Source: Lactobacillus sp. | GTDB taxonomy: Bacteria > Bacillota > Bacilli > Lactobacillales > Lactobacillaceae | Assembly: GCA_022641965.1 (NCBI GenBank) | Contig: JALCDX010000011.1 | Location: forward strand, 1 to 52,901 | Length of the DNA: 52,901 bases | Direction: 5' to 3' | Shown: piece by piece, positions 42,132 to 45,287 of the stretch | Numbering within the stretch: position 1 is the stretch's first letter | Layout of the letters: each line of letters opens with the position of its first letter | Notes under the pieces: model-generated | Told to the model about the DNA's origin: nothing | Database searches by the model: none | Seen by the model: only the letters and a program-made list of their open reading frames with translations | Translations under genes and position numbers: made by a program

Positions 42132-42432
42132 TGAAGTTACCCCCTAAAGTTGGACCAAACAGGTTCAAGTTTGGAGGTTTTTGTTTTGTCTAAATTTTCT
42201 TATGAGCAGAAATTAGCTGCTGTTAGGCTATATCTTGCTGGCCAAAGTTCTGGTTCGATTATTAAAGAGTTTCAAATTGCAGAGTATGCAGAACTTCTTT
42301 TTTGGGTCAAGCAATATCAAAGGCATGGGCCAGCAAGCCTTAGACCAAGCAAGACCAAATCACAATATAGTAGCGAGTTTAAATTAAATGCTTTAGACTG
42401 GAAAAAACGATATCACGAAACTTTTGAAGCAA
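42132..42432 (+). mobile_element. IS3-family element, 5' fragment
   Basis: The left end starts TGAAGTTACCCCC, differing from the two window-end copies by small changes. GGAGG, a TTG start at 42186 and about 82 codons of orfA follow (IIKEFQIAEYAELLFWVKQYQ, a helix-turn-helix region). It stops abruptly near 42432 where oppA sequence begins on the other strand. orfB and the right end are absent, so this copy cannot move on its own. Confidence 0.85.
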
Positions 42433-43143
42433 CGGCTTTGACGTTCCAGTAGTTCTTGTTCTTGACCATGGTCCAGGACAAGTTGGAGCCCGTCCAGCCC
42501 TTTTGCAGGAATGGCCCGTTATAAACGGTCGTTTTTGATGACGCACCGTACTTTGAGCCATACTTTTCAACTGCGGTCTGGTTTTCTGGGAAAAAGACTG
42601 GGAAGGCCATCAAAAGCTTGAAGTATGGAATCTTATGTTCCAGACTAACCCTGCAGCTTGTATTTGCCAGCGGCTTTCACGCCCAGCGTATCGGCCTTCT
42701 TTTTACCAGCAACGATCTGGTCGGCATTTTTAATCCCAGAGAAAATGTAGCTGTATTGGCTAGCTGTCTTGGGGTTCACCGTCCGCTTCCAGGAATAGAC
42801 AAAGTCCTTGGCAGTTACGGTTTCGCCATTAGACCATTTAGTCCCCCTTCTTAAGGTCAAAAGTCCAGGTCAGACCGTCTTTGCTGACAGTCATCTTCTT
42901 GACCAGTCCCTTAACCGGCTTGCTGTCTTTGCCCAGCTGGTAGAGCCCTTCAGTCGTATTTTCAATCTGCTGGAAGGACGTGGTGTCGGTGGCTTTGGAT
43001 GGGTCCATGGTGATGATTTCCGCACTGGTCATCCAGTTTAAATTCTGCTTGACAGATGCTCCTTGGCTCTTGCCGCAGGCCGCCAGCATGCTCCCGCACA
43101 TAAAAATAACAGCACCAGTCATTAAAGTCTTACCCTTGTTCAT
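42433..43143 (-). pseudogene. oppA: Oligopeptide-binding lipoprotein OppA, truncated and frameshifted
   Basis: The first 101 codons read as an OppA precursor with a lipoprotein signal ending LAAC (Cys near 23), then NLNWMTSAEIITMDPSKAT. A frameshift in a run of five G (near 42848) breaks the frame; the next frame gives GTKWSNGETVTAKDFVYSW. A second frameshift near 42645 leads to the LLMAFPVFFPENQTAVEKYG segment, then WNVKAV, where the gene stops at the IS3 fragment. About 240 of an expected roughly 540 to 590 residues remain. Confidence 0.88.
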
Positions 43144-43462: not shown

Positions 43463-43799
43463 TTGATTCACTTAGAAATTGCACAAAAACTTACTCAAGC
43501 AAATGAAAATGCCTCCCAAAATTTACTCAACTATTGCAATTATTGAAAAACTCGCTCAAAAACTTACTCAAGTAAGCCATCCCCCGGCCCAAAATTTACT
43601 CAACTACCAGGAAAAATTGGACAGTTGAGTAGACTGTTGTGCAGACAAATTGTTACTTGAGTAAATCTGTGTGCAAGCTTTTGGCTAGTTGAGCAAAGTA
43701 TTGAGAAGTATATTTTTTACTTGAGTAAATTTTTGTGAGCTCATTTCCCTAGTTGAGTCAACTTTTGAGCATCAATATTTCTACTTGAGTAAATTTTGT
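43463..43799. repeat. 32-bp-phased repeat array that flips orientation in the middle
   Basis: Ten clear copies of a 12-bp core, consensus TA(G/C)TTGAGTAAA, start their TTGAG/CTCAA parts at 43491, 43523, 43564 and 43596 (minus sense) and 43625, 43657, 43689, 43721, 43753 and 43785 (plus sense). The last six are spaced exactly 32 bp. Degenerate copies lie at 43463-43474 and near 43552. AG and AC variants alternate, giving a 64-bp higher-order unit, and AAATTTT-type sequence follows many cores. The array reverses at about 43614 and ends against the ISL3 element. Confidence 0.85.
43596..43632. repeat. Central hairpin of the repeat array
   Basis: TACTCAACT and AGTTGAGTA form a perfect 9-bp stem with further CCA/TGG pairing inside, centred near 43614. 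This is the point where the cores change orientation. Confidence 0.75.
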
Positions 43800-43813
43800 G
43801 GCTGTATAATTTT

Positions 43814-43868
43814 TCTTACTGATAGACGACCAGAAATGGTAGACTGTCAGTAAGATTTTTTGTTTTTA
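43814..43868 (+). terminator. Hairpin terminator at the ISL3 left end
   Basis: TCTTACTGA and TCAGTAAGA (43814-43822, 43847-43855) with further AG/CT and ACC/GGT pairs form a long imperfect stem, followed by TTTTTTGTTTTT. It would stop plus-strand transcription entering the element. It also contains part of the terminal inverted repeat. Confidence 0.7.
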
Positions 43869-43872
43869 GACT

Positions 43873-43898
43873 AGAAAAAAAGAAGCCCACTGGCTTCT
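43873..43898 (-). terminator. Minus-strand terminator at the ISL3 left end
   Basis: AGAAGCC and GGCTTCT form a 7-bp stem with a 4-base loop, and a run of seven T follows on the minus strand. Confidence 0.7.
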
Positions 43899-43955
43899 CT
43901 CTAAACAAAAAATCTTCTTCCACAATTCATTTAAGTATTAGAAAGCAAGTTACCA

Positions 43956-45287
43956 ATGGACCTCTCTAACAATTCTATAAAAGATTTGTACGATATTAAA
44001 GACCCAAACCTTGAATTTATTGATTTAGACAATCATGATCCCAAGTTTCCTAATGGATAAGTGTGGACAGCCAAGCTAGAATACAGCTACTGTCACGACT
44101 GCGAGTCAGACGATATCGTATATAACGGTTATAAGGTCGTTGATGTGCCCTATATTACCGCAAACGCAAGCCATTCTATAATCTTTAGAATCAAGAAGCG
44201 CGGCTTTTACTGCCGTAATTGCCAACGCTATTAACAGCCAAAGACAGAACTCCTCGACGAGTACTGCCATATTTCTAATGCGGTTAAACTTAAAATCTTA
44301 GATGGTTTAACAGAAGACCGCTCCATGACTAGTATTGCCAGGGAAAATGGTGTTTCTGTAAATACTGTCCAACGCGTTCTGGACAAGTGCAGCAGTAACT
44401 TTCACTCCACTTCCGATCCCTTGCCTGAGCACCTAGCTTTTGATGAATTCAAAGGCGTTGGCACGAGACTCCATTTCATCTGTCTTGATTGTGATAAACA
44501 CACGGTTGTCACTATTCTCCCTAATCGCTATAAGCGCTCCATTATCCGGTATTTTGAGAAGTACTCAGCTCAAGATCGGGAGCGGGTTAAGACTGTATCG
44601 ATGGACTTAAACTGTTATTATGGCGTACTAGCTCGGAGACTGTTCCCAAATGCGGAAATCATCATCGGCCGTTTCCACCTTGTACAGATGGTTACTAGGT
44701 CGTTTAACAGCTACAGAGTCTTAGTTATGAAACAAGCAGACAAGAACCGTATGGATCCCGAAAAAAGCTTAAAACACAGAATTTACAAGGGATACTGGAA
44801 GCTGTTTTTGAAGAAATACACTGAATTAAAGGGGCAGAAACAATTTTATGACTGGCTATTAAAGTGCTCATATACACCTGCTCAAATCGTTGATAAAGGA
44901 CTTGAATACGACGATGTTTTACGCTCCTCATATGACTTCATGCAAGACTTTATGATAGCCCTGCAGGATAGAAATAGCACCAAGATAGCTGAGCTACTAG
45001 ACAGCGATATTAACCAATACTGCGACCAATTAAAGACAACGATTAGGACCTTCAGAAAGAACCGGAGGGCTGTTATTAATGCGGCCAAATTCAGCTACTC
45101 TAATGGTTGCCTAGAAGGCTTTAACCGCAAAATCAAACAGATCCAGCGGACTGCCTTTGTATACAGAAATTTGACAACTATGCTCAAGCGTATTCGCCTT
45201 GAACAAAAGAATGTCCCAATTCAAAAAGCACCAAGCAAACGGATTTGCTTGATGCTTCAAAAATTAGACTTGACACCTTATCAGTAA
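43956..45287 (+). pseudogene. ISL3-family transposase with two in-frame stops
   Basis: The frame starts MDLSNNSIKDLYDIKDPNLE and would give about 443 residues. It has the ISL3 zinc-finger pattern CHDC and CRNC near the N-terminus, the helix-turn-helix SIARENGVSVNTVQRVLDKC, and the DDE transposase core with FDEFKGVG, SMDLNCYYG and the final YSNGCLEGFNRKIKQIQR. TAA codons interrupt it at 44058 and 44232, both before the catalytic core. The region from 44235 on is open, so a shortened protein without the DNA-binding fingers might still be made. Confidence 0.88.

Follow-up and report, generated by a model that had tools for sequence, protein, structure and literature searches.

The repeat array and its surroundings

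The stretch of DNA analysed here (the window, 52,901 nucleotides of a Lactobacillus genome) carries an array of ten copies of TA(G/C)TTGAGTAAA at 43501-43782, four of them reversed and six forward, when a core is called at no more than two mismatches to TASTTGAGTAAA. Table 1 lists the array and its neighbours. The gene to the left, which we take by eye to be oppA, is split into several frames within 42150-43143, with a transposase-type helix-turn-helix frame at 42150-42452, and one 101-aa piece is without Pfam match. To the right, at 43800-45287, an ISL3-family element seemingly starts at the last unit of the array, with stops in frame ahead of the transposase ORF.

Table 1. Position and strand, within the window, of the array and the features next to it.
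Feature	Position	Strand	Remarks
oppA-like lipoprotein gene fragments	42645..43143	(-)	Left of the array, 5' end closest; ORFs; orthologous flank in L120 (L. equicursoris), 84-87% identity
Left arm	43470..43606	(-)	Core starts 43501, 43533, 43574, 43606; spacing 32, 41, 32; same 4 units in L. equicursoris L120
Arm junction	43607..43621	(.)	16 bp between core starts; folds into a hairpin together with the inner core on either side
Right arm	43622..43802	(+)	Core starts 43622, 43654, 43686, 43718, 43750, 43782; 32 bp x 5; last unit apparently cut by insertion
Terminator-like hairpin, then T-run	43814..43855	(+)	Inverted repeat just beyond the right arm
ISL3-family transposase reading frame	44325..45287	(+)	Right of the array; 320-aa ORF; Pfam DDE_Tnp_ISL3, E 9.6e-42

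An earlier note on this DNA had described at least ten copies, four reversed and six forward, mostly in a 32-bp phase and flipping at 43614, all of which our motif scan confirmed, while the start positions given there (43625 and onwards) fall 3 bp inside the core start, at TTGAG. The hairpin proposed for the flip point was also recovered, folding as single-stranded DNA with -8.4 kcal/mol (z -2.8; equalled by one of 200 shuffles). The alternation of AG and AC versions and the suggested 64-bp higher-order unit hold in the window, and Tandem Repeats Finder returned a period of 64 for the right arm, but the unit of the wider family described below measures 32 bp. Across the whole window, 23 core matches were found, compared to 7.3 (sd 2.8) in shuffles and a maximum of 14 among 100 of them. 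The last unit diverges near 43800 from the last unit of the corresponding array in L. equicursoris, with the ISL3 transposase frame lying beyond, and judging from this comparison the right arm was probably broken there by an ISL3-type insertion. The array is the sole one of its type found in the window's assembly, which amounts to 807,589 bases on 15 contigs of a 67.5% complete Lactobacillus.

Two classes of arrays in related genomes

The exact pattern TASTTGAG-N24-TASTTGAG was found in three of 75 Lactobacillus genomes, namely that of the window (G000, 5 matches), L. equicursoris DSM 19284 (G050, 40) and the MAG E27__bin119 (G080, 15), with 0 matches in the backward control. In a collection of 84,980 species, the same exact scan yielded 20 stretches, every one belonging to L. 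equicursoris DSM 19284 or E27__bin119, and a sequence profile of the unit matched four of the 75 genomes, the fourth (G085) marginally at E about 1e-3. The window array is orthologous to L120 on contig C113 of L. equicursoris: stretches of flank and array are 84-87% identical, and the ten units align one by one, from the left, with the 14 of L120.

A second, related class (CD, as opposed to the AB class of the window) is built of 42-bp units, with GGTTGAGTCAACTTGGGGGC in arm C and GGTTGACATACTTYGGGGGC in arm D, and is present in four of the 75 genomes (G041, G049, G050 and G080); profile matches number two in G049, which holds a 4-unit remnant, and one in G080. When the units of arms A, B, C and D are aligned in phase, a common bipartite layout of 21 bp emerges, with TTGA close to its start and a G-rich GnGC closing it. 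The geometry is strict, as 525 of 534 same-strand spacings (AB and CD, 42 array groups) measure 31-33 or 41-43 bp, equivalent to three or four turns of the helix. Where the arms diverge, all 19 CD junctions measure 5 bp and 16 of the 21 AB junctions 16 bp (36, 47 or 48 bp in the rest), head-on joins between adjacent arrays span 46-47 bp in seven of eight instances, and arms hold 1 to 23 units. Overall, 628 motif matches stand against 4 in the reversed-sequence control. Since arm A differs from arm B, and C from D, each array has a direction. A function as RNA or hairpin was also considered and seems unlikely, since selection for pairing would hardly leave the two arms of an array with consistently different motifs (A/B, C/D).

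The examined stretches contain 34 array groups in L. equicursoris, 14 in G041 and 6 in G080, including contig-end fragments and arrays split by IS elements. Where both neighbouring genes were callable, 16 of 33 arrays lie between convergent genes, compared to 43 of 353 other gaps (p = 2e-6), and one of the 33 lies between divergent genes. Of 89 array ends, 45 have a terminator-like hairpin no more than 130 nt away, compared to 83 of 1363 random pieces, a control that does not consist of gene 3' ends and thus leaves insertion preference and mere gene-end position unseparated. The arrays flank many different genes, mostly at their 3' ends, and the link to oppA hence looks incidental.

Two further arrays of L. 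equicursoris deserve mention. One (L121:3383-3779) consists of 13 near-identical units at 33-bp intervals, which suggests that it expanded locally not long ago. The other (L358:32-176), near the start of contig C142, is a further 42-bp type of 3.5 copies whose unit contains CCAAGTATATGCAGCCAAG; the site is empty in G080 and occupied by an array of yet another type (E, see below) in G041.

An origin of the arrays from plasmids, phages or viruses was rejected, considering that neither an AB array nor a CD array found a match among plasmids or phages. The D motif had no match in IMG/VR, and the AB pattern met 55 stretches there, 54 with one match and one with two, which we judged to be chance.

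A predicted nuclease-initiator gene adjoins some of the arrays

Two loci, L126 in G080 (two AB arrays with the gene between them) and L200 in L. equicursoris (a CD array with the gene beside it), first drew attention to a neighbouring gene for a protein of ~535 aa, in which a NERD nuclease-related domain is followed by a Rep_3 plasmid-initiator (iteron-binding) domain. Eight full-length copies of this NERD-Rep3 gene exist in three of the 75 Lactobacillus genomes (four in L. equicursoris, two each in G041 and G080), and these are the three genomes richest in arrays. Another 16 of the 75 have partial matches only, and the gene was not found in the window's genome, 67.5% complete, or in G049. At E <= 0.01, Pfam recognises NERD in 8/8 proteins, Rep3_N in 7/8 and Rep3_C in 4/8. 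Residues E90, D129, E142 and K144 are invariant in all eight and putatively catalytic; we read them as a PD-(D/E)xK active site.

A phased array lies within 2 kb of all eight genes, and within 1.5 kb of seven. For these seven, period counts on the better side range from 51 to 739, whereas none of 31 control segments taken from the window exceeds 8. The eighth gene, L246, has a CD-type array 1.9 kb off, with an intervening frame that we read by eye as a transposase. Six of the genes came from a protein search, with the array sought afterwards beside each and found in every case. Considering that L246 is the counterpart of L200, and L241 that of L242, these constitute four further independent families (L241/L242, L243, L244 and L245), with arrays in 4/4. 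The period is 42 bp at L241, L242, L244 and L245 and 31 bp at L243, and the motifs of L241-L245 differ from AB and CD, that of L245 having the TAGTTGAGT core in common with AB. Between the arms of the 31-bp array beside the gene at L243 lies an AT-rich stretch of ~100 bp (L243:8205-8300) that recalls the melting region of a plasmid origin.

Besides the missing gene in the window's incomplete genome and in G049, it counts against the explanation proposed below that L. equicursoris has many AB arrays, but its four NERD-Rep3 proteins are 39-52% identical to the AB-linked protein, and no close copy of the latter was found there.

The genes sit among others that look chromosomal by eye. The protein matches 1179 plasmid records, for the most part from enterococci, staphylococci and lactobacilli, those listed in the Rep3 half only, and among 72,556 plasmids no match reaches 80% coverage of the query. 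Across the order, 40 of 246 genomes match at E <= 1e-10, again with all matches listed in the Rep3 half, and among phages one record matched, in the Rep3 part only. Of 65 IMG/VR stretches with the NERD-Rep3 pattern, none was confirmed, and a PDB sequence profile search returned nothing at E <= 0.05. A single-sequence structure prediction reached a mean pLDDT of 35 and was left unused.

Presence, absence and apparent fusion of arrays

Every AB locus found in G080 also has an AB array in L. equicursoris, whose contigs end within the array at tyrS and thrB (these locus names, as well as murC and phosphoketolase, are by-eye calls on our part). The tyrS site is empty in G041, G049 and the window's genome, the thrB site in G049 and G041, and the L118 site in G080, G049 and G041. 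Arrays of a further type, E, complement this picture in G041, where the E-type arm has 56 matches in nine places at no more than three mismatches, compared to 2 in the backward control; elsewhere it matches 12 times in G080 (11 of them at the gene), twice in L. equicursoris and once in G049. One E array of G041 (L324) is missing in L. equicursoris. A second (L325, 9851-12019), split by a 472-aa ISL3-family transposase frame, is replaced by ~10 bp without array in G080, and by a different 42-bp array in L. equicursoris, and a third (L319) has as counterpart L. equicursoris contig ends bearing CD arrays. Presence and absence at orthologous sites, by which MITEs and transposons are recognised, is thus found at L118, thrB, tyrS, L324 and L325. 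Conversely, the F-type motif (L244) has 10 matches in L. equicursoris, of which 8 lie at the gene, while a search of four other genomes gave none, which counts against spread.

At L126, where G080 has the gene between two AB arrays of the same orientation, L. equicursoris has a single fused array and the gene is gone. The fused array joins the left part of the first G080 array to the right part of the second, as expected from recombination between the two. At three locus pairs, orthologous arrays differ at 22 of 294 core, 66 of 272 spacer and 86 of 256 flank positions, the core positions having been preselected from the same units. Copies at non-orthologous loci are only about 64-89% alike in the comparisons made, and hence no recent jump is seen. 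Neither a target-site duplication nor precise array ends were definable at the compared sites, empty ones included. The outer units of the arrays resemble each other.

Proposed explanation

Our main reading, which we hold at a probability of roughly 0.6, is that proteins of a chromosomal NERD-Rep3 family bind the window array as a set of iterons, and that arrays of this kind have spread in copies without the gene. Rep_3 initiators use a pair of winged helices to bind their bipartite iterons. Analogously, each 21-bp bipartite site (TTGAGTAA and TGnGC) may be gripped by the pair of winged helices in the Rep3 part, with the three- or four-turn phasing stacking the proteins on one face of the helix, and the two arms directed away from a fixed centre. 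In the simplest case, each NERD-Rep3 protein would bind its own array type. Plasmid iterons are spaced by 21-22 bp, and the longer 32/42 spacing of the arrays counts against this view. The gene-less arrays, including that of the window, would represent dispersed non-autonomous copies in intergenic regions, often beside terminators. Their insertion would most likely be performed by the cognate NERD-Rep3 protein, and the inserted arrays may then grow or shrink via unequal recombination. The array family, its phasing, the linkage and co-occurrence of genes and arrays and the presence or absence at orthologous sites are visible in the sequences, and from these we infer binding, cleavage, mobility and a protein-driven spread. 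We prefer the reading in which a gene-linked array gives rise to gene-less copies elsewhere, and it is the E family that matches it best, whereas the F type is scarcely spreading and slightly lowers our confidence in the explanation. A bolder version, of which we are less convinced and which we put forward tentatively, is a selfish system, in which initiator-derived NERD-Rep3 nucleases, each with its own iteron alphabet, would recognise and copy their own arrays and spread them over the host chromosome, the families coexisting and competing for terminator-side sites.

Two further suggestions of the earlier note can be viewed in this light. A platform for cooperative protein binding gains partial support, since the conserved bipartite site, the strict helical phasing, the many copies and a candidate binder encoded beside the arrays would all suit such a role. 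That the array is a target drawing insertions is partially borne out by ISL3 transposase frames, one next to the array of the window and one that interrupts an array of G041, and by frames beside two other G041 arrays that were called transposases by eye.

Alternative explanations

An alternative that has the binding step in common with our reading is plasmid defence, where NERD-Rep3 would bind and cut the iteron origins of invaders in the manner of the Odn nuclease, with the chromosomal 32/42-bp arrays as protective regulatory or decoy sites that restrain the enzyme. It would account for a nuclease-related domain with invariant putative catalytic residues joined to a Rep3 half that resembles initiators on 1179 plasmid records, and according to the excerpted text of PMC8263062, Odn, a nuclease-initiator chimera, does need iterons to cut. 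We nevertheless deem it unlikely, as AB and CD arrays are without match in plasmid or phage records, PADLOC gave no match for the two NERD-Rep3 proteins scanned, the gene neighbours are by eye metabolic and transport genes, and dozens of dispersed arrays would be superfluous.

Rep_3 initiators perform handcuffing, and in this way the proteins might bring arrays together in trans and fold the chromosome into loops, with selection holding the positions. Positions common to species, dozens of sites, strict phasing and conserved cores are congruent with such chromosome organisation, and so is the polarity of CD arrays in L. equicursoris, which opposes the local GC skew in 17 of 22 (p 0.017, with arrays of the same contig counted separately). 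This polarity is however weak or absent elsewhere (E 8/11, p 0.23; AB in L. equicursoris 9/17; CD in G041 2/4) and reversed in AB of G080 (0/5); being mixed across the array sets, a replication polarity of the arrays is not claimed here. Moreover, most species of the genus lack arrays, as do several orthologous sites, and the nuclease domain is left unexplained, making this account less probable still than plasmid defence.

REP/BIME elements are found in intergenic regions, between convergent genes and near terminators. The intergenic location of the arrays and their enrichment at convergent genes (16/33 vs 43/353) and terminators resemble this distribution, raising the question whether the arrays are REP/BIME-like or passive repeats unrelated to NERD-Rep3, neighbouring it by coincidence or hitch-hiking. 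This we regard as improbable, since the units are direct repeats in arms rather than alternating palindromes, and since arrays near 8/8 genes, together with the co-occurrence in three genomes, are hard to obtain by chance. Finally, a one-off local tandem duplication beside oppA, which the single array in the window's own draft genome might indicate, can practically be dismissed, since L. equicursoris carries the array at the corresponding locus and dozens more lie elsewhere; running the test that the earlier note had set for a system rather than a one-off revealed related arrays of the same architecture in other Lactobacillus genomes.

Comparison with known systems

Rep_3 iteron theta plasmids likewise combine a Rep_3 winged-helix protein with short, helix-phased direct repeats beside the rep gene, and both an initiator domain in the associated protein (Rep3_N in 7/8, Rep3_C in 4/8) and direct repeats next to the gene (seven of eight within 1.5 kb, the eighth at 1.9 kb) are present here. 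On the other hand, our arrays are chromosomal, linked to a nuclease-related fusion, often two-armed and present in many gene-less copies, and instead of about two turns the spacing is 31-33 or 41-43 bp in 525/534.

As with REP/BIME elements and MITEs, the repeats are short, non-coding, dispersed and intergenic, and their presumed cognate enzyme is encoded at another place in the genome, but they consist of arms of phased direct units, with neither a palindromic unit, as in the alternating palindromes of REP/BIME, nor a target duplication found. CRISPR arrays have regular repeats of a similar period, but here the orientation flips at the centre, the stretches between cores are related and many loci are occupied.

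The nearest precedent among proven systems is Odn of phage ICP1, described in the excerpted part of PMC8263062 as an origin-directed nuclease-initiator chimera that needs iterons to cut the origin of a parasite. Both unite a nuclease with the DNA-binding part of a replication initiator, aimed (here by prediction) at iterons, but Odn joins T5orf172 to RepA_N, is encoded by a phage and acts on the parasite's origin (PMC8263062), whereas the present proteins join NERD to Rep_3, are chromosomal and would act on the carrier's own arrays. Other NERD proteins figure in PMC6563490 and PMC12458937, as far as the excerpted portions of these go. We came across neither these repeats nor a NERD-Rep3 protein in the open-access literature: the parts are of known kinds, and the combination was not found in print there.

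Aggregated, the arrays and their linked nuclease-initiator genes point to an undescribed DNA-binding, possibly mobile system, tying anonymous chromosomal repeats to a specific and testable protein family. The several pairs of protein and array lend themselves to a comparative study of DNA recognition by Rep_3 domains. Should binding and cutting be confirmed, NERD-Rep3 would constitute another initiator turned sequence-directed nuclease beside Odn, with sites across the carrier's own chromosome, and would represent a new kind of mobile DNA, a new layout of plasmid defence or a system for chromosome pairing.
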